Shown in pieces: positions 1,303 to 29,564 of a stretch of DNA of 41,424 nucleotides. Under the pieces are notes generated by a model, which worked only from the letters and a program-made list of their open reading frames with translations, was not told the origin of the DNA and searched no databases. Source of the stretch: Chloroflexota bacterium (GTDB lineage Bacteria; Chloroflexota; Anaerolineae; DUEN01); contig JAADGJ010000120.1 in NCBI GenBank assembly GCA_013152435.1, positions 1-41,424 on the forward strand. Direction: 5' to 3'. The first letter of the stretch is position 1. Every line of letters begins with the position of its first letter. The position numbers and the translations under genes were made by a program.

Positions 1303-1305
1303 GGC

Positions 1306-3672: not shown

Positions 3673-3678
3673 GGTATA

Positions 3679-4425
3679 ATGCGACTGAGATGCCTGGCAT
3701 GTGAGGTGTTGGCCCGGCCGCTGTACCTCTGCGCGGCCCACTCGCCGCACATCGTCGATGTGGAGCTGTTTCGCCGCGGGCTACACGATGACCCACCTGA
3801 TCTGCGGGCGCGGCTTCAGGCTCGCATTGACGTCTTGGCAGACGAGGGATATGACGCGATCGTGCTGGCGTACGGCTTGTGCGGGCAGGCCACGGCCGGG
3901 TTGGAGGCCCGGGGAATCCCCCTGCTCATCCCACGAGCGCACGACTGCATCACCATCTTCCTGGGCTCCAGGGAGCGCTACCGACAACAGTTCGAGGAAT
4001 GTCCGGGCACTTACTGGTATAATCTGGATTACATGGAGCGCTCGGATGGGAGTGGCGGCGGGGTAGCCCTGGGCGCGAACACCAGCACCGACATCGACGC
4101 CGTGTATCAGGAATACGTGGAGAAGTACGGAAAGGACAACGCCGACTACCTGATGGAGGTCATGGGCGCCTGGCAGCAGCATTACCAACGGGCGGCATAC
4201 ATCGACATGGGCGTCGGCGACGGGTCACGCATCGAGGCGCAGGCCCGCTCCCAGGCGGAGCGGCGCGGCTGGCGATTCGATCGGCTGGCAGGGGATCTGG
4301 TGCTGATCCGCCGGCTGCTCAACGGCGACTGGGACGAGGACTTCCTGGTCGTGCCGCCCGGGCAGCAGGTCAGGATGACCTATGACGAGCGAGTGGTCAC
4401 CTGCGCCGGGGAAGACCGGGGATAG
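3679..4425 (+). CDS. DUF1638 family protein
   Basis: A 248-aa cytoplasmic protein starting 6 bp after the glycyl radical enzyme. It has the DUF1638 signature: an N-terminal cysteine pair (C5, C8), a YGLCGQ motif (C68) and PRxHDCIT (H88, C90), then an aromatic-rich segment around TYWYNLDYME. The conserved Cys/His residues suggest a metal or corrinoid-related site, but the family has no function that I know of. Members are often seen near corrinoid methyltransferases; here the neighbours are a glycyl radical enzyme and its activase. No signal peptide or membrane segment is visible. Family assignment is good; role unknown. Confidence 0.8.
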   Translation: MRLRCLACEVLARPLYLCAAHSPHIVDVELFRRGLHDDPPDLRARLQARIDVLADEGYDAIVLAYGLCGQATAGLEARGIPLLIPRAHDCITIFLGSRERYRQQFEECPGTYWYNLDYMERSDGSGGGVALGANTSTDIDAVYQEYVEKYGKDNADYLMEVMGAWQQHYQRAAYIDMGVGDGSRIEAQARSQAERRGWRFDRLAGDLVLIRRLLNGDWDEDFLVVPPGQQVRMTYDERVVTCAGEDRG

Positions 4426-7171: not shown

Positions 7172-8589
7172 CGACGACCAGGCAGTCCACGACGCCTTCG
7201 TTCAAGGAGCGGGTGCGTCTCGCCCTGGGGGATCGGCACCTGCGCACCGCGCTGCAGCGCGCCACCGGGCAGTTCGAGCGGAAACGGGCACAGGCCTTCG
7301 CCGAGCTATCCGACCCGGAGCTGCTGCGAGATCAGGCCCGCGCGGCGCGAGAGCATGCCATCGCGCACCTGCCCGAGCTCCTGGAGCGGCTGGAGGCCGA
7401 GGTAACGGCCCACGGCGGGGTCGTCCACTGGGCGGAGGACGCGGCCCAGGCTCATCAGATCGTCCTGGACCTGGCCCAATCCCACGGGGTGCGCCGCATC
7501 GTCAAGGGCAAGTCCATGGTCTCCGAGGAGATCGGCCTCAACCAGGCGCTCCAGTCCGCCGGGCTGGAGGTGACGGAGACCGACCTGGGCGAGTTCATCA
7601 TCCAGCTGGCGGGGGAGATGCCCTCCCACATCGTCGTGCCCGCCGTTCACAAGCGCAAAGAGGATATCGCCGACATCTTCGAGCGCCACCTCGACGTGCC
7701 GCGCACTCTGGAACCGGAGGTCCTGACCGAGACGGCCCGCCGCCGTCTGCGCCGCTACTTCCTGCGGGCCGACATGGGGATCACCGGGGTCAACTTCGCG
7801 GTGGCGGAGACGGGCACGCTGGCCATCATCACCAACGAGGGCAACGGGCGCTTCGTGACCAGCCTGCCCCCCCTGCACGTGGCGATCATGGGCATCGAGA
7901 AGGTGATCGCCACGTTGGAGGATCTGATCCTGCTCGTGCAGATCCTCCCGCGCAGCGCTACCGGTCAGAAGATGACCACATATGTGAGCCTCATCAACGG
8001 CCCCGCGCGGCCGGGCGACCCGGACGGCCCGGAGGAGCTGCACCTGATCCTTCTGGACAACGGCCGCAGCCATATCATCGCCGAAGGATACACCGAGGCC
8101 CTATACTGTATCCGATGCGGCGCCTGCTTGAACAGCTGCCCCGTCTATCGGGAGATCGGGGGGCACGCTTACGGCTGGGTATACCCCGGGCCCATCGGCG
8201 CCGTGGTGACGCCGCTCCTGCAGGGGTTCCCCCGCGCCAGGGAGCTTCCCAACGCCAGCTCGCTATGCGGCGCCTGCCGGGATGTGTGCCCCGTGCGGAT
8301 CGACCTCCCCCGGCTTCTCCTGAAGCTCCGCAGCGAGCTGACGAGGACAGGGCTCTCCTCGCGATGGGAGCGATGGGCCATCCGGGGATGGCGCTGGATC
8401 ATGGCGTCGCCCGCCCGCTATCGATGGGCCGGGCGGCTGGCCGCCTGGGGCACCCTAGGGCTGGCGCGACGAGGATGGATCCGCCGGCTGCCCCCGCCGC
8501 TGAACCGGTGGACGCGCAGCCGGGACTTCCCGGCTCCCGCCGTCAAGCCGTTTCGGGAGCGTTGGGCGAAGCGGGAGGCAAGGCCATGA
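7168..8589 (+). CDS. lutB: LutB-like lactate utilization iron-sulfur protein
   Basis: A 473-aa protein with an N-terminal LUD domain (about 60-300; the segments SMVSEEIGLN and AETGTLAIITNEGN are typical) and a ferredoxin-type region with cysteines 314/317/320/324 and 367/370/374. A basic, Trp-rich tail follows. In the Bacillus LutABC complex this subunit takes part in oxidising L-lactate to pyruvate. It overlaps the upstream peptidase and the downstream lutC by 4 bp each. No lutA lies in the window, so it may partner with a distant LutA-like protein or with another 2-hydroxyacid dehydrogenase. Confidence 0.92.
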   Translation: MTTTRQSTTPSFKERVRLALGDRHLRTALQRATGQFERKRAQAFAELSDPELLRDQARAAREHAIAHLPELLERLEAEVTAHGGVVHWAEDAAQAHQIVLDLAQSHGVRRIVKGKSMVSEEIGLNQALQSAGLEVTETDLGEFIIQLAGEMPSHIVVPAVHKRKEDIADIFERHLDVPRTLEPEVLTETARRRLRRYFLRADMGITGVNFAVAETGTLAIITNEGNGRFVTSLPPLHVAIMGIEKVIATLEDLILLVQILPRSATGQKMTTYVSLINGPARPGDPDGPEELHLILLDNGRSHIIAEGYTEALYCIRCGACLNSCPVYREIGGHAYGWVYPGPIGAVVTPLLQGFPRARELPNASSLCGACRDVCPVRIDLPRLLLKLRSELTRTGLSSRWERWAIRGWRWIMASPARYRWAGRLAAWGTLGLARRGWIRRLPPPLNRWTRSRDFPAPAVKPFRERWAKREARP

Positions 8590-9299: not shown

Positions 9300-12275
9300 A
9301 TGCTTGACCTCTCGACATTTCAGACCCCGCCGAAGACCTACGGCGCGGCGCCTTTCTGGTCATGGAACGACGATCTGCAGGAGGACGAGCTGGTCCGGCA
9401 GATCGGCGTGATGGACGAAGGCGGTTGGGGAGGGTTCTTCATGCACTCCCGCGTGGGACTGATCACCCCGTATCTGTCCCGCCGCTGGTTCGAGTGCGTC
9501 AAAGCCTGTGTGATGGAGGCGAAGCGACGCGGCATGCACGCCTGGCTGTACGACGAGGACAAATGGCCCAGCGGCTTCGCCGGCGGCATCGTCCCCGCCC
9601 TCTCCCCCGCGTATCGGAGCAAGACACTCTACTGCCTGGTCGACCACAAGCCAACGCATATTCCCGAACGGCTGGGCGCCTGGATCGCCCGCCGTGAGGA
9701 AGGGCAACTGGTTGACTTCCAGCCCGCGCCCGACCCCTCGGCCTTCGATCCGACCACCCACGCCTGGGTGCAGATCTACCCCGTCACCGCCACGCTGACC
9801 GAGCCCTGGTTCAACGGGTACTGCTACTTCGACGCGTTGAACCCGGAGGCGGTACGCGCCTTCATCGAAAGCACCTATGAGGCATATGCCCGTGAGGTAG
9901 GCGACGCCTTTGGGACGACGATCCCGGGCATCTTCACGGATGAGCCGCAATACATTCGCTGGAGGGGATACCACCGCGCGATCCCCTGGACCGACGATCT
10001 CCCCGAGGAGTTCCGAGAGCGCAACGGCTACGACCTGATCCCGGAGCTGCCCAGCCTGTTCTTCGACACGGGCGATTACATGCGGGTGCGTTACGACTTC
10101 TGGCGCACCGTCACGCTGCGATTCGTGGACAGCTTCACCCGCCAGGTGGGCGAGTGGTGCGCCGAGCACAACCTGATGCTCACCGGCCACATGATGGCGG
10201 AGGACACGCTGGAGAGCCAGATCCGCTGGATCGGCGCCGCCATGCCGCACTACGAGTACATGCAGCTCCCCGGCATCGACAAGCTCTGCCGGGATATCGA
10301 CCAGCCGGTGACGGCCAAGCAGCTCGACAGCGTCGTGTGCCAGCTGGGGAAACCCCTGGCCCTGTGCGAGGCATACGGCTGCTCAGGACAGGACTTCAGC
10401 TTCGCAGGCCGCAAGTGGATCGGCGACCACCTGTACGCGCTGGGCATCAGCGTGTTGAACCCGCACCTCTCGCTCTACGCCATGCGGGGCGCCCGCAAGC
10501 GGGACTACCCGCCGAACATCTACTACCAGCAGCCGTGGTGGCCGTACAACAGCGCCTTCGACACGTACTACACGCGCCTGAGCTACGTGCTCACGCAAGG
10601 TCAGCGCGTGGTCGACGTGCTGGTCATCCACCCCATCGCCAGCGCATGGACGGTCTACAGGCCCATGGGAACGCTCCGGGCCGAACGTCTGAGCCGGGAG
10701 CTGCAAGCCCTGAACGACAGCCTGCTGGCGCTGCATCGCGATTATCACTTCGCCGATGAGATCCTCCTCGCCCGATATGGCAAAGTGGCGGACGGACGTA
10801 TTCGGGTCGGGGAAATGGCGTACCGGGTGGTGATCGTGCCTCCGGGCACCACGCTGGCCCAATCCACGGTAGACCTGCTCCACGACTTCGCCGAGGCTGG
10901 CGGCCTCGTCCTGGCCGTGGGGGAGGCGCCCACGCGAGTGGATGGCCGCCCGGCCCAACGCGTGCTCCCGCCGGAGACGGTGCGCATCCCCAACGAGCGA
11001 GCGGCCATCGCCCAGGCCCTGGACGCCCGCTTGCCCGCTGATATCCTGATCGAGGGCGAAGGGGCAGAGGAGATCATCTACCACCACCGGCGCGATGGGA
11101 CCACCGAGATCTTCTTCCTCGCCAACCAGGATCTGTACGAGGGACGGGAGGTCCGGGTTGTGCTGCCGGGAGAGGGACGCCTGGAGCGATGGGATCCCTT
11201 CACCGGGCAGACGGAACCCCTTGCCGGGCACGTCTCCGGCGGCCGTACCGAGGTAACCCTCTCGTTCCCGCCGGTGGGATCGCATCTGCTGGTCATGCAC
11301 ACGGATCAACCGCCGGTGGCCCTATCCTCCGAACAACGCCCCTCCACCGAGGAGTCGATCGCGCTCCCCGACCGCTGGACCTTCCGACGCCTGGATCCCA
11401 ACGCAATCACCCTGGACTATTGCTCCATCCGCCTGGACGACGGGCCATGGAGCGAGCGCAAGCCGATCTGGCAGGCCCATCGCGACGCCATGATGGCTGG
11501 CACGGGAACGCCATTCGCGCTGCGGTTCCGCTTCCAGGTCGAGGCCCTACCCTCCGCTATCGAACTAGTCCTGGAATGTCCCGAGCGGTTCCAAATCGCC
11601 GTGAACGGACGTAACGTGCCGTACCAGGACACAGGATACTGGCGGGACATCAGCTTCAAGCGGGTGGATATCCGTTCTTACGTGCAAGAGGGGGAGAACA
11701 CGATCGAGCTGACGGGCGTGGTGGCGGAGGACACGGAACTGGAGGACATCTACCTGATCGGGGATTTCGGCGTGAGCGCCCGCCGCATCGGCCCGGAGCG
11801 GCACGGCGCGGAGGGGATGGACTTCGACCGCTATGCCCCGGAGTTCGCGCTGACCCAGGAGGCGGCGGGCGGGACCAGCCGGGATCTGAACACCCAGGGC
11901 TACCCCTTCTTCGCCGGCATCCTCAGCCTGAGCCAGACGGTGGAGGTCGCCGATCCGGGGGAGCAAGCCATCCTGGCCCTGGACGGGCTACACGCCATCG
12001 TCGCCGAGGTATGGGTCAACGGCCAGCAGGCGGGGATCACCCTCCTGCCGCCCCATGAGGTGGACGTGACCGAGCACCTGAAGCCAGGCGCCAACGAGAT
12101 CGAGGTGCGCCTGGTCACCAGCCTGCGCAACCTGTTGGGGCCGCTCCACCGGGCGGGTGGCGATCAAAGATGGACCGGGCCCAACGACTTTGTGGACATG
12201 AGCCGATGGACGGACGACTACATCTTCGTGCCCTTCGGGTTTGAGGCCGCCCATCTGCGGATCCGGCGAGCATGA
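9300..12275 (+). CDS. large GH106-like glycoside hydrolase (alpha-L-rhamnosidase-related)
   Basis: A 991-aa protein. The N-terminal TIM barrel begins with FWSWNDDL and GGWGGFFMHSR, then YDEDKWPSGFAGG and GIFTDEPQ (about residue 220), typical of the GH106-related family of putative alpha-L-rhamnosidases. A Rossmann-like middle domain (about 430-580) and C-terminal beta-sandwich carbohydrate-binding domains (about 700-850 and 880-990) follow. No signal peptide is visible, so it probably acts in the cytoplasm on imported oligosaccharides. AGGGAAC precedes the ATG, and the gene follows lutC by 6 bp. Rhamnose breakdown can give lactate, a possible link to lutBC, but no rhamnose isomerase, kinase or aldolase is present. 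Exact specificity unknown. Confidence 0.75.
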   Translation: MLDLSTFQTPPKTYGAAPFWSWNDDLQEDELVRQIGVMDEGGWGGFFMHSRVGLITPYLSRRWFECVKACVMEAKRRGMHAWLYDEDKWPSGFAGGIVPALSPAYRSKTLYCLVDHKPTHIPERLGAWIARREEGQLVDFQPAPDPSAFDPTTHAWVQIYPVTATLTEPWFNGYCYFDALNPEAVRAFIESTYEAYAREVGDAFGTTIPGIFTDEPQYIRWRGYHRAIPWTDDLPEEFRERNGYDLIPELPSLFFDTGDYMRVRYDFWRTVTLRFVDSFTRQVGEWCAEHNLMLTGHMMAEDTLESQIRWIGAAMPHYEYMQLPGIDKLCRDIDQPVTAKQLDSVVCQLGKPLALCEAYGCSGQDFSFAGRKWIGDHLYALGISVLNPHLSLYAMRGARKRDYPPNIYYQQPWWPYNSAFDTYYTRLSYVLTQGQRVVDVLVIHPIASAWTVYRPMGTLRAERLSRELQALNDSLLALHRDYHFADEILLARYGKVADGRIRVGEMAYRVVIVPPGTTLAQSTVDLLHDFAEAGGLVLAVGEAPTRVDGRPAQRVLPPETVRIPNERAAIAQALDARLPADILIEGEGAEEIIYHHRRDGTTEIFFLANQDLYEGREVRVVLPGEGRLERWDPFTGQTEPLAGHVSGGRTEVTLSFPPVGSHLLVMHTDQPPVALSSEQRPSTEESIALPDRWTFRRLDPNAITLDYCSIRLDDGPWSERKPIWQAHRDAMMAGTGTPFALRFRFQVEALPSAIELVLECPERFQIAVNGRNVPYQDTGYWRDISFKRVDIRSYVQEGENTIELTGVVAEDTELEDIYLIGDFGVSARRIGPERHGAEGMDFDRYAPEFALTQEAAGGTSRDLNTQGYPFFAGILSLSQTVEVADPGEQAILALDGLHAIVAEVWVNGQQAGITLLPPHEVDVTEHLKPGANEIEVRLVTSLRNLLGPLHRAGGDQRWTGPNDFVDMSRWTDDYIFVPFGFEAAHLRIRRA

Positions 12276-12278
12276 CCT

Positions 12279-12383
12279 GTATCCTGCATCTTGTATCCTG
12301 GATCCTGGATCTTGTATCCTGCATCTTGCATCCTGGATCTTGCATCCTGCACCCTGCATCCGGTATCCTGCATCCTGCACCCT
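12279..12383. repeat. 15-unit heptanucleotide tandem repeat, consensus GYATCYT
   Basis: Fifteen consecutive 7-bp units, with unit variants such as GTATCCT, GCATCTT, GGATCCT and GCACCCT, fill the gap between the stop of the GH106-like gene and the next Gfo/Idh/MocA gene. The array starts 4 bp after the stop codon and ends 8 bp before the AGGAGG ribosome site at about 12391. The 7-bp phase is unbroken although the units vary. Confidence 0.92.
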
Positions 12384-12400
12384 GATATCAGGAGGTAACC

Positions 12401-13570
12401 ATGGCGAAAACGGTCAATGTAGCACTCATCGGTTACAAGTTCATGGGACGAGCACACTCCAACGCCCTCCGTCAGGCGCCGATCTTCTTCCCCGAGCTAC
12501 CGATCAAGCCCGTGATGAAGGTCCTGGTGGGGCGCAATCGCGAGGCGGCGCAGGCCGTGGCGGATCAATTCGGGTGGGAGGAGGTCGCCACCGACTGGCG
12601 CGAGGTGGTCGAGCGGGACGACATCCACGTGATCGACATCGCCTCCCCCGGCAACACCCACGCCGAGATCGCCATCGCCGCGGCCAAGGCGGGGAAGCAC
12701 ATCATCTGTGAGAAGCCGCTGGCCAACACGCTGGAAGAGGCCAAAGCGATGGTGCAGGCCGCCCAGGAGGCCGGGGTGACCACCCTGTGCAACTACAACT
12801 ATCGCCGGGTGCCCGCCATCCGCCTGGCCAAGAAGCTGATCGAGTCCGGCGCGCTGGGCGAGATCCGCCACTTCCGGGGCGCCTACCTGCAGGACTGGAT
12901 CGTCGATCCCGAGTTCCCGCTGGTCTGGCGGCTGCGCAAGGAGGTCGCCGGGGCGGGCGCGCTGGGCGACATCGGCTCCCACAACATCGACCTGTGTCGT
13001 TACCTGGTGGGCGAGCCCACCCGCGTCACCGCGCTGACCCGGACCTTCATCAAGCAGCGCCCCCTGCCATCCGAGGACATGGGCGCGTGGGGCTCGTCGG
13101 CGGGGGGCGGCATGGGCGAGGTGACGGTGGACGACGCGGCGGCCATCATCGCCGAGCTGGACAACGGCCCCGTCGCCACCTTCGAGGCCACCCGCTTCGC
13201 CCTGGGCCGCAAGAACTACAATTCGTTCGAGATCTACGGCTCCAAGGGATCCGTCGCCTTCAACTTCGAGCGGATGAACGAGCTGGAGTACTACGACGGC
13301 ACCCTACCCACCGACCGCCAGGGATGGTCCGTCATCCAGTGCACCAACGCCGGGGACCATGACTTCATCGATCACTGGTGGCCGCCCGGCCATCCCATCG
13401 GCTATGAGCACACCTTCACCCATGCCATCGTGGACTTCCTCAACGCGCTGGACAAGGGCGAGCAGCCCGACTCCGACTTCGCGAGCGGGGCTCAGACGGA
13501 TGCGGTGGTTGATGCCGTGCTGAAGTCGGCCGAGACCGGGCAATGGGTGACGGTGGAGAAGATCGCCTGA
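12401..13570 (+). CDS. Gfo/Idh/MocA family oxidoreductase (1 of 6)
   Basis: A 389-aa NAD(P)-dependent dehydrogenase of the Gfo/Idh/MocA family. The N-terminal Rossmann domain (about 5-130) has a slightly degenerate dinucleotide loop (GYKFMG) and the conserved EKP with the family lysine near residue 106. The C-terminal alpha/beta domain carries the DIGSHNIDL helix (about 190), where Asp and His normally act in catalysis. A long insertion follows near 220-235 (GSSAGGGMGE). The substrate is probably a sugar, polyol or glycoside. It is preceded by AGGAGGTAACC and followed by a strong hairpin at 13609, so this transcription unit seems to end here. Confidence 0.9.
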   Translation: MAKTVNVALIGYKFMGRAHSNALRQAPIFFPELPIKPVMKVLVGRNREAAQAVADQFGWEEVATDWREVVERDDIHVIDIASPGNTHAEIAIAAAKAGKHIICEKPLANTLEEAKAMVQAAQEAGVTTLCNYNYRRVPAIRLAKKLIESGALGEIRHFRGAYLQDWIVDPEFPLVWRLRKEVAGAGALGDIGSHNIDLCRYLVGEPTRVTALTRTFIKQRPLPSEDMGAWGSSAGGGMGEVTVDDAAAIIAELDNGPVATFEATRFALGRKNYNSFEIYGSKGSVAFNFERMNELEYYDGTLPTDRQGWSVIQCTNAGDHDFIDHWWPPGHPIGYEHTFTHAIVDFLNALDKGEQPDSDFASGAQTDAVVDAVLKSAETGQWVTVEKIA

Positions 13571-13608
13571 AAGGAGCGGGGGCGTTCAACCGTTGGCGAA
13601 ACGCATAG

Positions 13609-13630
13609 GGGGCCGGGGGTGCCCGGCCCC
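13609..13630 (+). terminator. GC-rich hairpin, likely terminator
   Basis: A perfect 9-bp stem (GGGGCCGGG / CCCGGCCCC) with a 4-nt loop lies 39 bp after the Gfo/Idh/MocA stop and is followed by TCTCTT. The T tract is weak, so efficiency is uncertain. Confidence 0.55.
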
Positions 13631-13740
13631 TCTCTTGTGGAGTTGAATCGCGGGCCTGAAACGGGGGGCCGCGATCCCGGGCGCCTATCCGATCACACCT
13701 CGCAGCCCACAAGGATAGCGCCCGGCCGACCGCCGGGCTC

Positions 13741-14002
13741 TTAGAGTATGTCTGAAAAACGCCGTTGCTTCTGCTGTGGGGAGGCCTGGAGGGGCTCCGT
13801 CCCTCCGGAAAAGCCCTTCTCCCACCTTCGACCTGCCTGGCCTCGGCCTGGGTCCTTCGGGAAGGGCCGAGAAAGGCAGGTGCAGGCCGGAAAAGTGGGG
13901 TTTTCCGTGGAGGGGAGGACCCCTCCACACCTCCCCATGTGGAGCTGGTCGTTGAGGGAGACCCTCAGACATCTCGCCGGTAAATTTTCAGACATGCTCT
14001 TA
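13741..14002 (+). repeat. MITE-like dispersed repeat, copy B (complete, 262 bp)
   Basis: This is the only complete copy in the window. The ends form terminal inverted repeats: TTAGAGTATGTCTGAAAA at 13741-13758 and, read from the other strand, TAAGAGCATGTCTGAAAA at 13985-14002, with two mismatches in 18 bp. There is an internal dyad around GGAGGGGAGG/CCTCCCC, and no transposase. The structure fits a non-autonomous element mobilised in trans, or a large REP-type repeat. Reading frames across it look non-coding. It fills most of the 13571-14034 gap. Confidence 0.8.
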
Positions 14003-14034
14003 CACATCTCACCAAAATGAGGACGGGATCCACC

Positions 14035-15060
14035 ATGCTCACAGCGGCGATCATCGGCTGTGGCCGTATCGTTGCGGAAGGACACCTGCATGCCTTCCAG
14101 ACGTTGAAAGACCGGGTTCGCGTCATCGCGCTGGCCGATCCGGCACCCGAGCGACGGGCGCTGGTCGGCGACGCGCTGGACGTGCCGGAATCGGCACGCT
14201 ATGCGGACTATCGAGACCTGCTTCATCGTGAGACGCCGGATTTCGTCGATCTGGCGCTGCCCCATTTCCTGCATGAGGAGGTCACCATCGCCTGCGCGCA
14301 GGCCGGACGGCACATCCTGACGGAGAAGCCTCTGACCACCTCGCTGGAGTCGGCCGACCGCATCCTGGAAGCGGTGGAGCGCGCCGGCGTGCGCCTGGGC
14401 ATCATCCACAACTACCGCTACCTCCCCCACAACGTCCACGCCCTGCGCCTGATCGAGGCGGGGAAGATCGGAGAGCCGTTCTTCATCCGCAACGAGGGGC
14501 TGGGGGGCGGCCACTACCGGGGGGCGCCCGGATACGACCCGGACTGGCGAGCGAAGGGGGAGCGGGCGGGCGGGGGTGCGCTGCTGGATAATGGCTACCA
14601 CAACATGTACGTGGCCGAGGCCCTAATGCAATCGCCCGTGAAGGCCGTGTTCGCGCACGTGGGCACCTACGTTCAACGCCAGGACGTAGACGACCTGGCC
14701 GTCGTGCTGCTGGAACACGAGAACGGCGGCGTATCGTCCGTGCAGGTAAGCTGGGCGATCCACGGCGGCGGCCAATGGGTCTCAGAGGTACATGGCACCG
14801 GGGGGAGCCTGCGCTTCGTCAACGGGCGGCTCGAACTGTTCGAAAACGACCAGGGGCAATGGGTGTCGCAGGACGTGGGGGAGCGCAATCACGGCCGGTC
14901 GTTCGTCGGGCTGTTCTCCGACTTCATCACCGCGCTGGAGCAGGGACGGCCGCCGGAGCTGGACGGGCGCGCCGCCCGACACAACCTGGCCATCGTCATG
15001 GCCGCCTACGAGTCCAGCCGACGAAAGCGCCCTGTGGCGCTCAGCGAGCTGGGCGAATAA
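14035..15060 (+). CDS. Gfo/Idh/MocA family oxidoreductase (2 of 6)
   Basis: A 341-aa family member. The Rossmann loop GCGRIV is near residue 8, the EKP motif near 96 and the C-terminal helix DNGYHNMYV near 185, where Asp and His are retained. I place the start at ATG 14035, directly before the first beta strand, with AGGA 11 nt upstream; an ATG at 14017 would add six residues and lies only 14 bp from the end of the MITE. Dehydrogenase on a sugar or polyol is the family expectation. The TIM-barrel isomerase gene follows after 90 bp. Confidence 0.88.
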   Translation: MLTAAIIGCGRIVAEGHLHAFQTLKDRVRVIALADPAPERRALVGDALDVPESARYADYRDLLHRETPDFVDLALPHFLHEEVTIACAQAGRHILTEKPLTTSLESADRILEAVERAGVRLGIIHNYRYLPHNVHALRLIEAGKIGEPFFIRNEGLGGGHYRGAPGYDPDWRAKGERAGGGALLDNGYHNMYVAEALMQSPVKAVFAHVGTYVQRQDVDDLAVVLLEHENGGVSSVQVSWAIHGGGQWVSEVHGTGGSLRFVNGRLELFENDQGQWVSQDVGERNHGRSFVGLFSDFITALEQGRPPELDGRAARHNLAIVMAAYESSRRKRPVALSELGE

Positions 15061-15150
15061 GCGAGCACCTTCCCAAGCGCGCGAACGGGAATGGAATGCA
15101 CACTTTCATCAGACTCCGGCCCAGAAGCCCGTAGAAGGAGATAGCGAACG

Positions 15151-15957
15151 GTGAGGTTAGCGATCCAACATACGATGGTACGTGGTCAAACGCTGGCGGA
15201 ACGGTTTCAGCGCGCGGCGGAATACGGCTTCGCCGGGGTTGAGCTGACCACCGGGGGATTCTCGGGGCCGATCTTCGAGCATGTGGAGGAGATCCAGGCA
15301 GCCATGAGCGCCAGCGGGCTCCCGGTGAGCAGCATCTGCACCTCACGGGCGGAGGACCTCATCACGCCGGACCCGGAGGAGCGAGCTGCCCGCGCCCAAA
15401 ACCTGATCCGGCTGCTGCAACTGGCCGAGCAGCTGGGCGCGTCCGGCGTCGTCTGCGTGCCCATCCGTCCCCCCACACGCCTGCCCGACCTATCACCCGT
15501 GGGGACGGAGAACGAGCTTATCGAGCGGCTGCTCGTGGTCACGCTGCAGGATGTGATCGCCGAGACCGCCGATCTGGACGCGGCCATCTTCCTGGAGCCG
15601 CTGAATCGCTACGAGGCTCGCTTCCTGCGCACGCTGGCCCACGCGATGCGGATCGGGCAGGCGGTCGGCCATCGGCGCATCCAGGTACTGGCCGACTTCT
15701 TCCACATGAACATCGAGGAGGCGGATATCCCGGGCTCCATCCGGGCCGTCAGCTCCCGTCTCGGGCATGTGCACCTGGCCGACTCCAATCGTCTGCTCCC
15801 CGGGCATGGGCACATCGACTTCGCCGCGAGTCTGAAGGCGCTGCGTCGCGCCGGATTCAGCGGCTGGATGGTGCTCGAATGCAGCATCCCGGACGATCCG
15901 AACAAGACGCTGCCGGCCTGCGTCTCCTACCTGCGGGAACGCTGGCAGCAAGGCTGA
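15151..15957 (+). CDS. sugar phosphate isomerase/epimerase-like TIM barrel protein
   Basis: A 268-aa xylose-isomerase-like TIM barrel protein. Likely divalent metal ligands are visible: Glu in FLEPLNRYE (about 150), Asp and His in ADFFHMNIEE (about 186), His in GHVHLADSNR (about 208) and the C-terminal Glu in VLEC. The family includes epimerases and isomerases of free sugars, hydroxypyruvate isomerase, and the catalytic subunits of C-glycoside lyases. The GTG start has AAGGAG 11 nt upstream. Sandwiched between Gfo/Idh/MocA genes, it probably works on the keto-sugar or isomer that they make or use. Confidence 0.87.
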   Translation: MRLAIQHTMVRGQTLAERFQRAAEYGFAGVELTTGGFSGPIFEHVEEIQAAMSASGLPVSSICTSRAEDLITPDPEERAARAQNLIRLLQLAEQLGASGVVCVPIRPPTRLPDLSPVGTENELIERLLVVTLQDVIAETADLDAAIFLEPLNRYEARFLRTLAHAMRIGQAVGHRRIQVLADFFHMNIEEADIPGSIRAVSSRLGHVHLADSNRLLPGHGHIDFAASLKALRRAGFSGWMVLECSIPDDPNKTLPACVSYLRERWQQG

Positions 15958-16128
15958 CCGCGGCACCCGGCGCGCTCCTGGCTGCGAGGGAGCTCGCCAC
16001 GTTCCCGGCGCATCCTGTAAGCGAGCGCCCTGCGGTGGCGGCATATCGCTGTCGACCGAGGGGGCTCGGAAGATGAGCCACAACTTCATTACGGTAGCCT
16101 ACCCTTTCATGAGAATCAGGAGGGTTCT

Positions 16129-17136
16129 ATGCTGAACGTCGGTGTATTGGGTGCGGGGACGATGGGAACGCTTCACGCCCATCACCTGTGCCAGATCCCC
16201 AACGTACGGTTGGTGGGCGTGACCGCCCTTCCAGCCAACGAGGCGGACGCGCTGGCCAGCAGTCTGGGTATCCAGCGCTACGACTCGTCAGAGGCGCTGC
16301 TGGCCGACCCGGCCATCGACGCGGTGGTCATCGCCACGCCAACGCCCACCCACGCCGAGCTGATCATGGCGGCGGCGCGGGCGGGCAAACACATCTTCTG
16401 CGAGAAGCCGCTGGCCCGTCACCTGGAGGATGGCCAACGGGCGATCGAGGCATGCCGCGAGGCGGGCGTATCCCTGATGATCGGCCACGTGGTGCGATTC
16501 TTCCCGGAATACGAGCGCATCAAAGAGCTGATCGACCAGGGAGCGATCGGCAAGCCCGCGATGCTGCGCTTCAGCCGGGTGGCTCCCTTCCCCCGGGCCG
16601 GGCAGGAGAACTGGTACGCCAATACGGCGGCCAGCGGCGGCGTGATCCTGGATCTGATGCTGCACGACATCGACACGCTACGCTGGTACTGCGGGGACAT
16701 CCTGCGCGTCTATGCCCACAGCCTGACGGGGCGCACGGACGTGGAGCGGGACTACGCGCTGGTCACCATGCGCATGGCCTCTGGGGCGATCGCCCACCTG
16801 GAGGGGTCATGGGCCCATCCCGGCGGCTTCCGGACGCGCGTGGAGATCGCCGGCGACGGCGGGCTGCTCTCGGTGGACAGCCGGGAGAGCGCCCCCATTC
16901 AGATCGAGCGGTGGATGACGGAGGGGCGTGGGGGCGGCGTGGCCCTGCCCGAAAGCCCGCTGGCGGAGAGCCCCTATCTGGTGGAACTGCGCCACTGGGT
17001 GGACCACGTCGTCAACGGGACACCGCTGCGGGTGACGCCGGAAGACGCGCTGAAGGCGCTCGAGGCCGGGCTGGCCGCCATGGAGTCGGCCGACACAGGC
17101 CAGGTGATCTCACTGGTCCGGGGAGGTGTGTCATGA
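16129..17136 (+). CDS. Gfo/Idh/MocA family oxidoreductase (3 of 6), inositol-dehydrogenase-like
   Basis: A 335-aa protein with a clean dinucleotide loop GAGTMG (about 8-13), EKP near 93 and a C-terminal catalytic helix reading DLMLHDIDTLRW near 184 (Asp and His as in myo-inositol dehydrogenases). The ribosome site AGGAGGG lies 6 nt before the ATG. Its TGA overlaps the ATG of the next Gfo/Idh/MocA gene (ATGA), so the two are translationally coupled and may work as successive or paired dehydrogenases. Substrate not determined. Confidence 0.92.
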   Translation: MLNVGVLGAGTMGTLHAHHLCQIPNVRLVGVTALPANEADALASSLGIQRYDSSEALLADPAIDAVVIATPTPTHAELIMAAARAGKHIFCEKPLARHLEDGQRAIEACREAGVSLMIGHVVRFFPEYERIKELIDQGAIGKPAMLRFSRVAPFPRAGQENWYANTAASGGVILDLMLHDIDTLRWYCGDILRVYAHSLTGRTDVERDYALVTMRMASGAIAHLEGSWAHPGGFRTRVEIAGDGGLLSVDSRESAPIQIERWMTEGRGGGVALPESPLAESPYLVELRHWVDHVVNGTPLRVTPEDALKALEAGLAAMESADTGQVISLVRGGVS

Positions 17137-18125
17137 AGATCGCCATGCTCAGCTTTGCCCATCTACATGCACTCAGCTACGCCGAATGCCTGCGCCAGCT
17201 GCCGGACGCGGAGCTGGCCGCCATCTGGGACGAGGATGCGGAGCGAGGCCAGACCATGGCCGGGCGCTTCGAGACCCGCTTCGTAGGCGATCTGGACGCC
17301 CTGCTGCGAGAGGAGGAGATCGCCGCCGTGATCATCACCGCGGCCAACGCGGACCACAAGGACCTGGCCGTCGCCGCCGCGCAGGCGGGCAAGCACATCC
17401 TGTGCGAGAAGCCCATCGCCACCACCGTGGCCGACGCGCAGGCCATGATCCAGGCGGCAGACGAGGCCGGCGTCAAGCTGATGACCGCCTTCCCGGTGCG
17501 CTACAACCCGCCCACCCGCCGCGTGTACGAGCGCGTGCGCGGTGGGGAGATCGGCCCCATCCTGGGGGCCAAATGCACCAACCACGGCACCATGCCGGGC
17601 GGCTGGTTCACGGACAAGGAGAAGGCCGGCGGCGGCGCCGTCATGGACCACACCGTGCACGTGGCCGATCTGCTGCGCTGGATGCTGGAGGACGAGGTCG
17701 TCGAGGTATACGCCGAGCTCGACAACCTCATCTACCCGGACATCCACATCGATGACTGCGGCCTGCTCTCTATGCGCTTCTCATCCGGGACCTTCGCCAC
17801 CCTGGACACATCCTGGTCCCGGCCTCCCATCTTCCCCACCTGGGGGGATGTGACCATGGAGATCGTAGGACGGGATGGCGTGCTCTTCCTGGACGCGTTC
17901 CGGCAGAACGTGGAGCTCTACAGCCAGACGCAGAACCGCGTCGCCTGGGTTCACTGGGGGACCAACATGGACCTGGAGATGATCCGGGACTTCATGCGGG
18001 CCATCCGGGAGGACGCGCCGGTCCCCATCACCGGATACGACGGCCTGAAGGCCATGGAGATCGCGCTGGCGGCCTATCGCTCCGCGGAGACCGGCCAGCC
18101 GGTCTCCCTGCCGCTGACCCCGTAA
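17133..18125 (+). CDS. Gfo/Idh/MocA family oxidoreductase (4 of 6)
   Basis: A 330-aa protein beginning at the coupled ATG with GGGAGG a few bases upstream; the longer open frame reaching back to 16188 is an artefact over the previous gene. The Rossmann loop is atypical (LSFAHLHA instead of GxGxxG), EKP is near 94, and the C-terminal helix MDHTVHVADLLRW near 174 keeps Asp and His. The unusual loop suggests altered cofactor binding or a divergent subfamily. It ends 43 bp before a hairpin that probably terminates this operon. Confidence 0.9.
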   Translation: MKIAMLSFAHLHALSYAECLRQLPDAELAAIWDEDAERGQTMAGRFETRFVGDLDALLREEEIAAVIITAANADHKDLAVAAAQAGKHILCEKPIATTVADAQAMIQAADEAGVKLMTAFPVRYNPPTRRVYERVRGGEIGPILGAKCTNHGTMPGGWFTDKEKAGGGAVMDHTVHVADLLRWMLEDEVVEVYAELDNLIYPDIHIDDCGLLSMRFSSGTFATLDTSWSRPPIFPTWGDVTMEIVGRDGVLFLDAFRQNVELYSQTQNRVAWVHWGTNMDLEMIRDFMRAIREDAPVPITGYDGLKAMEIALAAYRSAETGQPVSLPLTP

Positions 18126-18167
18126 AGGGCAAGAGGGGAGCAACTCGCCCGAGGACGCACGGAACAG

Positions 18168-18195
18168 GCGGGTCAGGCGATCGCGCCTGGCCCGC
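18168..18195. terminator. bidirectional hairpin between convergent genes
   Basis: A 12-bp stem (GCGGGTCAGGCG with CGCCTGGCCCGC, one wobble) closes a 4-nt ATCG loop. It lies between the + strand Gfo/Idh/MocA stop (18125) and the minus-strand galU stop (18295). No clear T tract, so it could act as a transcription barrier in either direction. Confidence 0.55.
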
Positions 18196-18294
18196 TCTCC
18201 AATGGGATCGGCGCGACGTGAGCCCCATCCTCTGAAGCGGGGCAAACGGCCCGCTTCCCGCGATGTCCCCGGACGAGAGGCCCGCTCACGTCGA

Positions 18295-19188
18295 TCAGAT
18301 CAGTCCGGCGAACGCGGCCACGGTGTGCGCGTATTCGGCCGGGCGGCCGATGTCGAAGGAGCGGCCATCGACCTCGTAGGCCCAAAGGGGCTCGTCTTTC
18401 AGCATGAGCTGGAGCGCCGAGGTGAACTGGATCTCCCCGCGCTCGCGCAGGTCGTGGTCGATGAGGTACTGCAGGTGATCGAAGATGGACGCGGTCAGCG
18501 CGTACTGGCCGTAGATGCCCAGATACCACCCATCGGGCAGGCCGCGAGTGCGCAGGTGCTCCCAGGCGTAGTCGGCGGCCGGCTTCTCGGCGATGTTGTA
18601 CAGCCGATAGAGCCGGGCGACCTGATCGTCCTGCTCGCCCGCCATGACGCCGATCGCGTAGATCGCGTTCTCCGGGACGCGCTGTGTGGCCAGAACGGAG
18701 TGCCCGGTATGCTCAAAGGCATCGATGATCTGCTGGGCGCAGGTGCGGGGGGTGGCGCTGCGATAGAGATGATCGCCCAGGAGAAGCAGGAACGGCTCGT
18801 CCCCCACAAAGGAGCGGGCGCAGTGGACGGCATGGCCGAACCCCTCCTGCGTGGGCTGAACCACGAACCGCAACCGCTCGGCGATCTGCAGAAGATGCTC
18901 CGTCTGCTCGATCGCCTGGGGCAACCTGCTCAGACGGCCGTTCAACTCCTCCGAAAGCGGCTCGCTGAAATAAAAGCGAAAGACCTCCTCATCGCCGGGC
19001 CGGACCACCAGGCACACCTCCTCCACGCCTGTGCTCAACGCCTCCTCGACGATGCGCTGGATGACCGGCTTGGCGACGCCATCAGGGCCGACGACCGGGA
19101 ACAGCTCCTTTTTGACAGCCCGGGTGGCGGGATACAGACGGGTCCCCATCCCCGCAGCCGGGATGACAGCTTTGCGAATCTGGGACAC
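18295..19188 (-). CDS. galU: UTP-glucose-1-phosphate uridylyltransferase
   Basis: A 297-aa nucleotidyltransferase that makes UDP-glucose from UTP and glucose 1-phosphate. The nucleotide-binding signature AAGMGTRLYPATRAVKKEL is at about residues 10-28, VQPTQEGFGHAV near 110, a GD pair (LLGDHLY) near 135 and an EKP segment near 198. Length and order fit GalU. The start is GTG with AAGGAG 8 nt upstream, below a recognisable promoter at 19246-19274. It is the only minus-strand gene in this sugar region and may feed cell-envelope sugar synthesis. Confidence 0.93.
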   Translation of the reverse strand: MSQIRKAVIPAAGMGTRLYPATRAVKKELFPVVGPDGVAKPVIQRIVEEALSTGVEEVCLVVRPGDEEVFRFYFSEPLSEELNGRLSRLPQAIEQTEHLLQIAERLRFVVQPTQEGFGHAVHCARSFVGDEPFLLLLGDHLYRSATPRTCAQQIIDAFEHTGHSVLATQRVPENAIYAIGVMAGEQDDQVARLYRLYNIAEKPAADYAWEHLRTRGLPDGWYLGIYGQYALTASIFDHLQYLIDHDLRERGEIQFTSALQLMLKDEPLWAYEVDGRSFDIGRPAEYAHTVAAFAGLI

Positions 19189-19245
19189 GACAGCGCTCCT
19201 TGTTCATGACTGGAATTCGAGGGCGGAAACCGAAGATTCCATATG

Positions 19246-19274
19246 ATTATAGCGTAGCTTGAGGGGAAGGCCAA
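19246..19274 (-). promoter_or_regulatory. sigma-70 promoter of galU
   Basis: On the minus strand, TTGGCC (19274-19269) and TATAAT (19251-19246) are 17 bp apart, 58 bp upstream of the galU start. The -35 box lies inside the region holding the ribosome site of the divergent hexosaminidase gene. Confidence 0.65.
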
Positions 19275-19276
19275 CC

Positions 19277-21295
19277 GTGACAACAGATCGTGAGATCGCA
19301 TGGATTCCACAGCCGAAATCGGTGGAGTGGTTGCCGGGGCGATTCGCCTGGGACGGCATCGAGGCGCTCGTCGTCTCCGAGAGCGGGGACAAACGCCCGC
19401 TGGCCTGGGCCACAGCGCTGTGCGAGGAGCTGAGCGCCCGGCTCGGGCGGGCGCTGGCCGTCCGGCCGGCCGCCGCCATGGAACCAGGCCTGTGGCTGGC
19501 CGCCACGGCAGAGGGCGACGCATCCACGCTCCAACTCGATCTTCCACAAGCGCCGGAGGGATACGTCCTGCAGATCACCCCGACGACCTTGCTGATCGCC
19601 GCGCGGCGGCCGGCCGGGCTGTACTACGGGCTGCAGACGCTCCGCCAGCTCCTCGCGGACGCGGCGGACGAGTCGCTTGCCCTTCCCGCCGTGCGCATCA
19701 CTGACTGGCCGGATCTGGCCGTGCGCGGCATCCATCTGGATCTCAAAGGGGCCATGGCCCCGTTCGACTACTGGCGAGAGGTGATCGTCACGCTGGCGCA
19801 CTATAAGATCAACGCGCTGCTCATCGAGTACGAGGATAAATTCCCCTACACCGGCCATCCGGACATCGTAGGCCCCGGCGCCCTCACCCCGGGCGAGGTG
19901 GCCGAGCTGGTGGAGCTAGCCCGAGAGCATTGCATCGAGGTGATCCCGCTGGTGCAATGCCTGGGGCACGTCGAATATGTGCTCCGTCACGAGCGCTACG
20001 CACACCTGCGCGAGGACGGGGAACTGTCCCAATACTGCCCCCTGGAGCCCGGCGCGGCCGAGCTATTCCGAGAGATGGCCGACGAGGTCATCGCCGCCCA
20101 TCCGTACAGCCGATACTTCCACCTGGGGGCGGACGAGACGTGGGTGCTGGGACAATGCCCCCGCTGCCGGGAGGAGGCCGCTCGCCAGGGGAAGCTGGGC
20201 CTCTACATGGACTACGTCGTCCCGGCGATCGAGCACATACGCTCTCGCGGCAAGGTCCCCATCATCTGGGACGACATGGTGTGGCGCACCCCGCAGCCCG
20301 ACCGGGTCGATCGATTCCCCGCGGACACGGTGATGTGCGACTGGTTCTATCACATCACGGAGCCTCAGGTCCCCTACTTCCTGTGGGGAGACGAGGAGAA
20401 CATGAGCCGTCGCTGGGTCTCCCGACGATGGCGGGAGATCGACCCGACGGTGATCCCGGCCGGAGCGCGTCCGCTGGAGGATCTGCCCGAGGCCGGCCGA
20501 GAATTCGCCCGGCGGTATTGGGACCGCGGCAACTGGCCGCTGATGGGAGACGCGCTCCCCTACGCCAACTTCTTCAAGGAGCAGGGGAGGCCCGTGATCG
20601 GCGCCTCGGCCGCGAAGGGGGCCGACGGCTTCTCGGCCTTCTGTCCCAACTTCGACCGCCGCTATCGCAACGTGGCCCTGTGGGGGAAGGCAGCAGTCGA
20701 AAAGGGGATCGAGGGCGTCATCAGCACGGCGTGGTCCCGTTACTCGACCCTCACCGTGCCCTGTGAGCCGTTTGAGATGGCCTGGTATACCTACCTGGCC
20801 TCGGCCGAGTCCTACTGGAACGGGAGTACGACGCCGCGCGCGCTGTTCGACATCGCGTTCGACCGCCGATTCGTGGGGGCGATCGGGGTCGCTGAGGCGA
20901 TCCGCCATCTGGATCGCGGGCGGGCCGATCCCACCGGGAACGGGCTGGCCATGGCGAGGGAGCGCCTGGACGCGGCGGCAGGGCAGGCCACCCCCGCCGG
21001 ACGACGACATATCGCTCATCTCCAACTGGCTGCAGACCTGGCGGAGCTGCAGGCCCGCGCCGAGGGCGTGCTGGGGCGACTGATCCCGTCGGCGGGACGG
21101 ATCGCCCGCGGGGAGCCCACACGCGAGGCGACGCGAGCGGCGAAGGAGATCGAGGCCCTGTTGGCAGCCTTCGAGGCCTGGCAGCAAGCGGCGAAGGAGG
21201 TCCTTGCCCAAACCCTCCTCCCCGCCGATGCAGCCGAGGTCATCGAGGCCCAGACGTTCGGCTGGAAAGAAGCCCTGACAGGCTGGAACACGTAA
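19277..21295 (+). CDS. GH20-family beta-N-acetylhexosaminidase-like glycosidase
   Basis: A 672-aa protein with an N-terminal GH20b-like domain (about 1-135, ending LYYGLQTLRQLL) and a TIM barrel from RGIHLDLKG (about 150) onward. The catalytic Asp-Glu pair is D286-E287 in FHLGADETW, where Asp positions the substrate acetamido group and Glu is the acid. The C-terminal 180 residues are helical and Arg/Ala-rich. No signal peptide, so probably cytoplasmic. The start chosen is GTG 19277 with GGGGAAGG 6 nt upstream; a TTG at 19259 is less likely. Its last codons lie within the first unit of a 7-bp tandem repeat. Divergent from galU. Confidence 0.85.
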   Translation: MTTDREIAWIPQPKSVEWLPGRFAWDGIEALVVSESGDKRPLAWATALCEELSARLGRALAVRPAAAMEPGLWLAATAEGDASTLQLDLPQAPEGYVLQITPTTLLIAARRPAGLYYGLQTLRQLLADAADESLALPAVRITDWPDLAVRGIHLDLKGAMAPFDYWREVIVTLAHYKINALLIEYEDKFPYTGHPDIVGPGALTPGEVAELVELAREHCIEVIPLVQCLGHVEYVLRHERYAHLREDGELSQYCPLEPGAAELFREMADEVIAAHPYSRYFHLGADETWVLGQCPRCREEAARQGKLGLYMDYVVPAIEHIRSRGKVPIIWDDMVWRTPQPDRVDRFPADTVMCDWFYHITEPQVPYFLWGDEENMSRRWVSRRWREIDPTVIPAGARPLEDLPEAGREFARRYWDRGNWPLMGDALPYANFFKEQGRPVIGASAAKGADGFSAFCPNFDRRYRNVALWGKAAVEKGIEGVISTAWSRYSTLTVPCEPFEMAWYTYLASAESYWNGSTTPRALFDIAFDRRFVGAIGVAEAIRHLDRGRADPTGNGLAMARERLDAAAGQATPAGRRHIAHLQLAADLAELQARAEGVLGRLIPSAGRIARGEPTREATRAAKEIEALLAAFEAWQQAAKEVLAQTLLPADAAEVIEAQTFGWKEALTGWNT

Positions 21296-21349
21296 CACGC
21301 AACACGCAATACGCAACACGCAACACGCAACACGTAACACGCAACACGT
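21287..21349. repeat. 9-unit heptanucleotide tandem repeat, consensus AACACGY
   Basis: Nine perfect-phase 7-bp units (AACACGC or AACACGT, one AATACGC). The first overlaps the final sense codons and the stop of the hexosaminidase gene, and the last ends 20 bp before the next Gfo/Idh/MocA start. The units are much more uniform than in the 12279 array and unrelated in sequence, but share period and placement. Confidence 0.93.
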
Positions 21350-21369
21350 AACCACACAGCGAGGGAACC

Positions 21370-22449
21370 ATGACGGACAGAAAAGTGCGTGTCGGCATCG
21401 TCGGCGCAGGCTTTGTCACGGCGCGAGGGCACATCCCCGCCTACAAGCGACTGCCCAACGTCTCCATTGAGGCCATCTGCGACATCAACGTGGAGCGGGC
21501 GAGAGAGGTCGCAAGGGAGTTCGATATCCCTCACGTCTTCGCCGATTTCGAGGAGATGTTGGAGCAGGTGGAACTGGACCTGGTGAGCATCGGCACACCG
21601 AATCGCTTCCACGCTCCTCAGACCATCGCCGCGCTGGAGAAGGGATGCCACGTCCTGTGCGAAAAGCCCATGGCGCTCACCGTGGAGGAGGCCCAGGCGA
21701 TGGCCGAGGCCGCCCGCAGGAACGGGCGAAAGCTGACGCTGGGGCTCCATCATCGCTACCGCCCGGAGGCTATCGTCCTGAAGCCGATGTGCCAGGCGGG
21801 CGAGCTGGGCGAGATCTACTACGCCCGGGCGTCGATGATGCGCCGATCCGGCATCCCCGGATACGGAAGCCACTTCACCAACAAGGACCTGGCCGGCGGC
21901 GGCTCGCTGTACGACATCGGCGTGCACATCCTGGACCTGACCCTGTACTTCATGGGATATCCCGAGCCGGTCTCCGTAAGCGGGCGAATCTTCTCCGTCT
22001 TCGGCCCCCAGCGCAAAAAGCTGGGCCGATGGGGGGCGGACATCCTGCCCGGGCACGCCCGCTTCGACGTGGACGACCTGGCGACAGCCATCGTGAAATT
22101 TGACAACGGTGCTATATTACAGCTGGAGGCGGCCTGGGCGTTCCACGGCCGCAGCGAGCAGCGGGTGCAATTGATCGGCAGGGAGGGTGGCGCCGAGATC
22201 TACCCAGAGATGTTCGGCCGAGAGCAGGCGCTGCGCGTTTACAAAGACTGGGGGGACCGCCCGATCGACATCACGCCGGAGCTGCCACGGTTCCCGGCCA
22301 ATCAACAAGCCCGACAGATCGAGGACTTCGTCAACCACCTGGACGACCCCGAGCCACCTGTGGTCACCCCGGAGGAGGGGGTGATCCTGACCCGGATCCT
22401 GACGGGGATCTACCGGTCGGCCGAGACGGGCGAAGAGGTCCGGGTGTAG
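21370..22449 (+). CDS. Gfo/Idh/MocA family oxidoreductase (5 of 6)
   Basis: A 359-aa dehydrogenase with a Rossmann loop GAGFVT (about 11-16), EKP near 99, an HHRYRP strand near 127 and a C-terminal helix YDIGVHILDLTLY near 180 (Asp and His kept). GAGGGAACC precedes the ATG. It starts 20 bp after the AACACGY repeat and ends before a strong hairpin at 22593, so it is probably the last gene of the hexosaminidase unit. The likely substrate is a sugar or glycoside; unknown. Confidence 0.9.
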   Translation: MTDRKVRVGIVGAGFVTARGHIPAYKRLPNVSIEAICDINVERAREVAREFDIPHVFADFEEMLEQVELDLVSIGTPNRFHAPQTIAALEKGCHVLCEKPMALTVEEAQAMAEAARRNGRKLTLGLHHRYRPEAIVLKPMCQAGELGEIYYARASMMRRSGIPGYGSHFTNKDLAGGGSLYDIGVHILDLTLYFMGYPEPVSVSGRIFSVFGPQRKKLGRWGADILPGHARFDVDDLATAIVKFDNGAILQLEAAWAFHGRSEQRVQLIGREGGAEIYPEMFGREQALRVYKDWGDRPIDITPELPRFPANQQARQIEDFVNHLDDPEPPVVTPEEGVILTRILTGIYRSAETGEEVRV

Positions 22450-27357: not shown

Positions 27358-27446
27358 AAGCGTGCCCCCTTTCGTATATCCTGATCCTCCTGGCGACCTC
27401 CCAACGCCGCCAGGGCCGGCCTTTGCCCGGCGAAAGCAGGGAAGAT

Positions 27447-29447: not shown

Positions 29448-29564
29448 CGACAGCTCCTTATCAGGCATAAGATGATGCGGTCCAGGCCCCTACGCCCCCA
29501 TCACGAAACGCACGCGGTAGGAAGCCCCCGCCGTAGCGCGTGCCCCGTGGCAGCGTCAGGATAC

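Follow-up and report, generated by a model that had tools for sequence, protein, structure and literature searches.

A possible ycjQRS-like keto-sugar module joined to two glycosidase genes in an Anaerolineae genome

Which reaction follows the oxidation of a sugar at C3 is the question raised by a gene block in the window analyzed here, a stretch of 41,424 nucleotides on a 64-kb contig (C120) of a Chloroflexota bacterium of the class Anaerolineae, the genome of which comprises 4.97 Mb in 149 contigs. Known keto-sugar pathways differ in the step after C3 oxidation, which may be epimerization, elimination, or hydrolysis, and annotation seldom separates them because all use Gfo/Idh/MocA proteins (Gfo below) and isomerase-like barrels. 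The block, at positions 9300–22449, holds five Gfo genes, a gene for a single barrel that is xylose-isomerase-like, and genes for two proteins resembling glycoside hydrolase (GH) families 106 and 20, respectively. All of these had been named in an initial annotation of the window and each was confirmed by Pfam, as was the ATGA overlap of two Gfo genes at 17133–17136 by their coordinates; a GalU-like gene on the opposite strand, which interrupts the run, had been missed. The genes of the block are as follows.

9300–12275, plus strand: GH106L, GH106-like glycosidase of 991 amino acids (PF17132)
12401–13570, plus strand: Gfo1, levoglucosan-dehydrogenase-like Gfo/Idh/MocA protein (NF052479, PDB matches)
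14017–15060, plus strand: Gfo2, Gfo/Idh/MocA protein without a close solved relative (PF01408, 86 bits)
15151–15957, plus strand: AP2, putative YcjR-like keto-sugar epimerase barrel (PF01261, AP_endonuc_2, 140 bits)
16129–17136, plus strand: Gfo3, inositol-dehydrogenase-like, first of a conserved pair (TIGR04380, PDB 3ezy)
17133–18125, plus strand: Gfo4, second of the conserved pair (PF01408, 92 bits)
18295–19188, minus strand: GalU-like nucleotidyltransferase within the run (PF00483, 67.8 bits; TIGR01099, 183 bits, cut-off 326.8)
19277–21295, plus strand: GH20-like beta-hexosaminidase (PF02838, 67.6 bits; PF00728, 50 bits, cut-off 22.3)
21370–22449, plus strand: Gfo5, putative YcjS/DgpA-like glycoside 3-dehydrogenase (PDB 9m3d, 7xr9; YcjS match)

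The reading that we favor, and to which we give an even chance, is that the block encodes a cytoplasmic, ycjQRS-like module that would oxidize, epimerize, and reduce keto-sugars and is joined to two glycosidases. The ycjQRS genes of Escherichia coli reportedly convert D-gulosides to D-glucosides, YcjR acting as a keto-sugar 4-epimerase and YcjS as a D-glucoside 3-dehydrogenase. The best matches to these two proteins in the whole genome both lie in the block: AP2 matched YcjR with 110.8 bits and 34% identity (the next match, 61.8 bits), and Gfo5 matched YcjS with 225.5 bits and 37% identity (the next, 172.3 bits), in a genome with 29 barrel and 43 Gfo matches. The chance that both would fall in this window was roughly 0.005. 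The block differs from ycjQRS in having four further Gfo genes and two glycosidase genes and in identities of only 29–37%. We call it ycjQRS-like, and not a ycjQRS operon, because only two of the three genes have counterparts here, judged by subfamily, and the remaining one is missing.

By sequence, the closest solved relative of AP2 is YcjR (PDB 6wn6, 111 bits), and Foldseek returned the same structure as the top match of an AlphaFold2 model built from 38 sequences (predicted local distance difference test, pLDDT, 97.5). VIA-align placed 3kws, YcjR, and TM0416 level at Z 32–33; C-deglycosidases and AtOGE were not among the 50 matches listed by either program, which proves nothing by itself. 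The metal site of AP2 (E149, D182, H208, and E243) is invariant in the 38 sequences and aligns with identical residues in YcjR and in ketose epimerases; the protein shares the metal-site motifs of YcjR. In a tree of 47 rows, built without LgdB1, LgdB2, and AtHYD, YcjR fell inside the AP2 family, and TM0416/IolO and the ketose 3-epimerases fell outside it (support 93/92, with long end branches). Topologies excluding YcjR from the AP2 family were rejected (P = 0.002), as were those joining TM0416/IolO to the family without YcjR and 3kws (P = 0.007), both clade tests having been defined only after the tree had been seen. AP2 reads E149-P-L151, with L151 at least 90% conserved in the 38 sequences. 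Subfamily and motif together predict a protein of the epimerase type.

The neighborhoods of AP2-family genes have the composition of ycjQRS in their Gfo and zinc dehydrogenase genes. Of 80 loci, all drawn from genome records that carry titles, 23 have a Gfo gene and 20 a zinc dehydrogenase of the YcjQ type no more than 3 kb from the AP2 homologue. Their densities per 10 kb were 0.64 and 0.47, respectively, at less than 3 kb from the AP2 gene, compared with 0.05 and 0.08 beyond 6 kb, the zinc-dehydrogenase profile having been built partly from four of the 80 loci counted. ThuA genes, counted with a profile built likewise, were not enriched near AP2-family genes in these loci (0.07 vs. 0.05 per 10 kb). 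At least one of the three gene types was found within 3 kb in 42 of the 80 loci, and none of them in the other 38. ThuA-family genes were seen in several barrel-family or GH106L loci (L053, L052, L071, L128, and L043), identified with PF06283 in L043 only and by likeness in the others.

The initial annotation had proposed that the block breaks glycosidic or C-glycosidic bonds by oxidation and elimination. In a pathway of oxidation, elimination, hydration, and reduction, as for LgdA/B1/B2/C, AtOGE, and DgpABC, a Gfo protein would produce a 3-keto-glycoside, the barrel would eliminate the aglycone, water would be added, and another Gfo protein would reduce the 3-keto-glucose. We consider this unlikely. 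Epimerization and elimination start alike, with the removal of a proton beside the keto group, and this we counted in favor of elimination. The combination of barrel and Gfo genes is, moreover, the published layout of such pathways (PMC7676230, PMC10628242), and two of the dehydrogenases resemble those of the known systems. Gfo1 is LgdA-like over its full length, matching the levoglucosan dehydrogenase model NF052479 at profile positions 2–386 of 386 and, in the PDB, 4h3v (416 bits) and 6a3f (358 bits), with the motif D190xxxH. Gfo5 is similar over its full length to DgpA1/DgpA (9m3d, 230 bits; 7xr9, 223 bits) and the barrel, with its metal site, shares the fold class of the C-glycoside deglycosidases and AtOGE. 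DgpA oxidizes C3 of C- and O-glycosides, and its bound nicotinamide adenine dinucleotide (NAD) is recycled with 3-oxo-glucose (PMC11239390). Gfo5, of the YcjS type by subfamily, is about as close to DgpA as to YcjS; together with the likeness of Gfo1 to levoglucosan dehydrogenase, this makes C3 oxidation of sugar residues likely.

Several features speak against the elimination step. Gfo1 scored 419 bits, below the LgdA cut-off of 650, as did the matches of all 73 genomes, among 199 of the class, that had one at E 1e-90; none was above it. The barrels adjoining LgdA-like genes in other genomes of the class belong to subfamilies other than AP2, which itself groups with YcjR in the tree. The window has a single AP_endonuc_2 match, of 29 in the genome, whereas two barrels are used in Lgd- and OGE-type pathways, the eliminase LgdB1 and the hydratase LgdB2 in the levoglucosan pathway (PMC7676230), which differs also in that no transporter genes stand beside our block. 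In AgCGD2, the metal ligand E147 is followed two residues on by the catalytic H149 (PMC8563793), and in AtOGE, H132 is followed likewise by the catalytic H134 (PMC10628242). Judged by sequence position, L151 of AP2 takes the place of both histidines, and AP2 differs from the C-glycoside deglycosidases (DgpABC, CarABC) and AtOGE in having no catalytic His in the E-x-H or H-x-H site. The C-deglycosidase beta subunit family PF19906 had no match in the window, and its single match in the genome lies on contig C103 and reached 36 bits; the 3-keto-glycoside hydrolase family PF06439 had none in the window and one partial match in the genome, on contig C93. The dehydrogenase models BT_2158 and BT_2159 of the BT2158-type oxidoreductive glycan pathway scored no higher than 53 bits, against cut-offs of 750 and 650. 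Cleavage of C-glycosides was rejected as the principal reading, with the beta subunit missing from the cluster and the catalytic His missing from AP2. Of the earlier proposal, keto-sugar chemistry and C3 oxidation are thus upheld by the YcjS/DgpA-like Gfo5 and the LgdA-like Gfo1, and elimination is disfavored by the single YcjR-like barrel with L151 for His.

Another source of ambiguity is the likeness to Thermotoga maritima. Gfo3 has IolG as its best family (TIGR04380, 239 bits) and 3ezy, presumably Thermotoga IolG, as its best PDB match (161 bits), and the best NCBIfam model of AP2 is IolO (142 bits), with TM0416 (IolO; PDB 2zvr) among its best solved relatives and tied with YcjR in VIA-align. 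The block could then be a variant of inositol or sugar-acid catabolism, in which Gfo3 would be an inositol-type dehydrogenase and the barrel an IolO-like epimerase of keto-gluconate, or a ketose 3-epimerase, acting on free sugars or acids. Both scores are below their cut-offs (355 and 300), the grouping of AP2 with TM0416/IolO in the absence of YcjR and 3kws was rejected in the tree test given above, and an IolG–IolO pair leaves the adjoining glycosidases and the YcjS-like Gfo5 unexplained. We regard this variant as improbable.

The ycjQRS-like reading assigns work to several dehydrogenases, and these are not copies of each other. Because the six Gfo proteins of the window are pairwise only 20–32% identical, their genes represent different subfamilies, and recent tandem duplication was ruled out. 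Gfo1–Gfo5 retain EKP and DxxxH, which we take to be the catalytic motifs. For Gfo2, the best PDB match reached 99 bits; in the genome G010, its 55% relative adjoins a 47% relative of Gfo5. Gfo3 and Gfo4 form a conserved gene pair, newly recognized here: in 10 of 10 distant loci, a Gfo4 homologue (43–55%) directly follows a Gfo3 homologue (43–48%) on the same strand. Outside the family, 25 genomes have a Gfo3 match, and the ten loci are a nonrandom sample of these, namely the first nine by E-value and G057. In the start of Gfo4, IAMLSFAHLHALSY (17133–17200), the loop SFAHLHA replaces the usual GxGxxG. The three homologue starts compared (L159, L163, and L167) read SFAH[LI]HAE[SA]Y, a possible signature of the Gfo4 partner. 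The conservation of the pair makes unrelated single-step enzymes unlikely, and the case in which the dehydrogenases would prove to be just that, foreseen in the initial annotation as fatal to a pathway, is contradicted by the pair and by the conserved order of the cluster. C3 oxidation and sequential action of the enzymes are likely.

The block is no chance clustering. PF01408 had 43 matches in the genome (41 above the cut-off), six of them in this window; with a Poisson expectation of 0.36 per window, the chance of at least six is about 2e-6, or 3e-4 over some 120 windows. The run of genes in the same direction reaches upstream of GH106L, the stop of LutC lying 6 bp before the GH106L start, and LutB–LutC are probably cotranscribed with GH106L. 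The neighboring features are the following.

388–1302, plus strand: glycyl-radical activase
1306–3672, plus strand: trans-4-hydroxyproline dehydratase (NF043068, 1364 bits, cut-off 1100)
3679–4425, plus strand: DUF1638 gene
4509–5594, plus strand: DUF4432 gene
5990–7171, plus strand: M24 peptidase
7168–8589, plus strand: LutB, L-lactate oxidation (TIGR00273, 495 bits, cut-off 444.8)
ending at 9293, plus strand: LutC, L-lactate oxidation (PF02589)
13741–14010, no strand given: interspersed repeat of about 260 bp between Gfo1 and Gfo2, its ends inverted (further copies in the window at 21–220 and 33890–34005)
downstream of Gfo5: a gene for an unassigned membrane protein, followed by a major facilitator superfamily (MFS) transporter (minus strand) and a class-V aminotransferase (minus strand)
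26287–27360, minus strand: Gfo6, sixth Gfo/Idh/MocA protein
28119–29468, minus strand: GH4 enzyme (alpha-galactosidase model, 543 bits, cut-off 486)

In a genome of the same genus (G001), the order DUF4432–M24–LutB–LutC–GH106L–Gfo1–Gfo2–AP2–Gfo3–Gfo4–(GalU-like, opposite strand)–GH20 is kept up to the contig end with 68–94% identity, and in another genus of the same family (G002), GH106L through Gfo5 and the membrane gene are kept with 75–90% identity. The GalU-like gene has the same position and strand in both and is 90–92% identical. The ratio of nonsynonymous to synonymous substitution rates (dN/dS) was 0.04–0.15 across all genes tested, indicating purifying selection. What sequence, structure prediction, and gene order show here is the subfamily of each enzyme, the residues of the active sites, the conservation of the order, and the action of purifying selection. 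A third genome of the family, G003, has no such block: Gfo1 (88%) directly follows LutC, and Gfo5 (83%) is alone, divergent from a GH78 alpha-L-rhamnosidase. As Gfo1 and Gfo5 are apart there, the block is an assembly of smaller units.

Such an assembly could also be a mosaic of separate units (LutBC–Gfo1, Gfo3–Gfo4, and Gfo2/Gfo5), brought together by chance or loose co-regulation, with different substrates and never acting in sequence. Apart from the separation of Gfo1–LutC and Gfo5 in G003, this agrees with the ten distant Gfo3–Gfo4 loci, where no close AP2 relative was seen and one weak barrel match (37 bits) was found, and with the ABC (ATP-binding cassette) transporter genes near the pair in all three Pfam-checked loci (L159, L163, and L167). 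The block itself is not one tight operon: a genome-wide repeat of about 260 bp lies in the 447-bp gap between Gfo1 and Gfo2, and the run is split by the opposite-strand gene. Against a mosaic stand the order kept in two genera at the low dN/dS given above and the locus L043 of G065, from another family of the class, where the genes after a GH106L homologue encode, in this order, an MFS transporter, a barrel of the AP_endonuc_2 family, a Gfo protein resembling LgdA, a second Gfo, a third Gfo-like frame, and ThuA. We consider it improbable that the genes of the block never act together. At a further distant locus, L165, a zinc dehydrogenase lies near the Gfo3–Gfo4 pair, and blastp pairs it with YcjQ (36%).

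The two glycosidases distinguish the block from ycjQRS. GH106L is above the Pfam gathering score (PF17132, 67.8 bits, cut-off 29), covers profile positions 269–739 only, and gave weak matches to PDB 5mqm, 5mwk, and 6q2f; its orthologue in G001 is 84% identical. Three glutamates (E215, E301, and E357) are kept in nine homologues. E357 aligns with residue 593 of 5mqm, so that a Glu is kept at this position as in GH106 alpha-L-rhamnosidases, and Glu 461 lies next to E215 in a part where the alignment is poor; Glu 593 and Glu 461 are, we assume, the catalytic pair of 5mqm. With 62 bits for the BT4145-type equivalog model (cut-off 1300), GH106L is by its sequence a divergent GH106-like subfamily, probably intracellular, and in this differs from the known rhamnosidases. 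The GH20-like protein has its GH20 domain above the cut-off and a D286–E287 catalytic pair in HLGADETW. By eye, neither protein has a signal peptide or an N-terminal hydrophobic segment, and both are therefore probably cytoplasmic. Matches to GH106L were found in 17 other genomes of the class, and a Gfo gene was present in three of the eight stretches examined.

For the ycjQRS-like module, we infer as follows the substrates, the sequence of reactions, and the direction in which each dehydrogenase works. Glycosides or oligosaccharides would be taken up via a transporter encoded elsewhere, and their terminal residues removed by the GH106-like and GH20-like enzymes. Gfo5 would oxidize C3 of the glycosyl residue with bound NAD+, and the YcjR-like barrel would invert a neighboring carbon (C4 in YcjR) via a metal-bound enediolate. 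A second Gfo, either Gfo2 or the Gfo3–Gfo4 pair, could then reduce the keto group and regenerate NAD+. The net effect would be a redox-neutral change of sugar configuration, by which central metabolism is supplied with common sugars. Any L-rhamnose set free by the GH106-like enzyme could be turned into L-lactate in the end, LutB and LutC being encoded directly upstream. A broader claim, which we make tentatively and hold to be rather unlikely, is that the block represents an undescribed type of locus for intracellular stereochemical editing of glycan residues. In it, five nonredundant Gfo proteins, including the obligate Gfo3–Gfo4 pair with the SFAHxH loop in one partner, and a YcjR-type epimerase would convert rare residues of rhamnose- and hexosamine-containing glycosides to common ones, redox-neutrally and beside two dedicated intracellular glycosidases. 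A literature search, judged by its listings, found no publication describing this gene set.

The following points weigh against the ycjQRS-like reading. The identity of AP2 and YcjR is only 29–34%, and the tie in Z with a ketose 3-epimerase makes C4 no more than a candidate for the epimerized carbon; the clade tests that favor YcjR followed inspection of the tree. The block contains neither a zinc dehydrogenase of the YcjQ type nor genes for a phosphorylase or an ABC transporter of sugars, and a blastp search with YcjQ against the 22 proteins of the window found no zinc dehydrogenase. The roles proposed for Gfo2, Gfo3, and Gfo4 are tentative. AP2 matches were found in 15 other genomes of the class, and of the eight stretches examined, one contained a Gfo gene. 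In G003, Gfo1 goes with LutB–LutC, Gfo5 lies elsewhere, and AP2 is absent, and given this arrangement the set is a mosaic that may not be one pathway.

The surroundings of the block add further observations. The sixth Gfo gene and the GH4 gene listed by the initial annotation are real, yet they lie on the opposite strand beyond three further genes, and they were left out of the cluster for this position and for the Gln that replaces the Asp of DxxxH in Gfo6. This residue is Gln203, and the Asp is present in the other five Gfo proteins; the EKP motif is retained in Gfo6. A 55% relative of Gfo6 lies near an AP2-family gene on a Planctomycetota contig (L098). The trans-4-hydroxyproline dehydratase and its activase adjoin the DUF1638 gene (388–4425), and G003 keeps the order DUF1638–DUF4432–M24–LutB–LutC–Gfo1 with no HypD match in the stretch examined. 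The gap between Gfo1 and Gfo2, 447 bp here, is about 105 bp in G001 and 210 bp in G002. The repeat in it resembles a miniature inverted-repeat transposable element, with the ends TTAGAGTATGTCTGAAAA ... TTTTCAGACATGCTCTTA; a first look at the genome gave 332 candidates, and 44 copies were among the matches listed. Two kinds of 7-bp tandem arrays (CCTGCAT and AACACGC) fill intergenic gaps at 12276–12384 and 21287–21352, where the GH106-like and the GH20-like gene end.

Keto-sugar pathways share their protein families, and at this locus the readings can be told apart, and a prediction open to testing obtained, by combining best-match searches over the whole genome with a tree of subfamilies and the identity of the residue two positions after the metal-binding Glu. 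The Gfo3–Gfo4 pair, now named, occurs at every distant locus of the class that was sampled, and its substrate can be assayed. If the ycjQRS-like reading is true, the chemistry of ycjQRS would extend from a small operon of E. coli to a locus linked to glycosidases.

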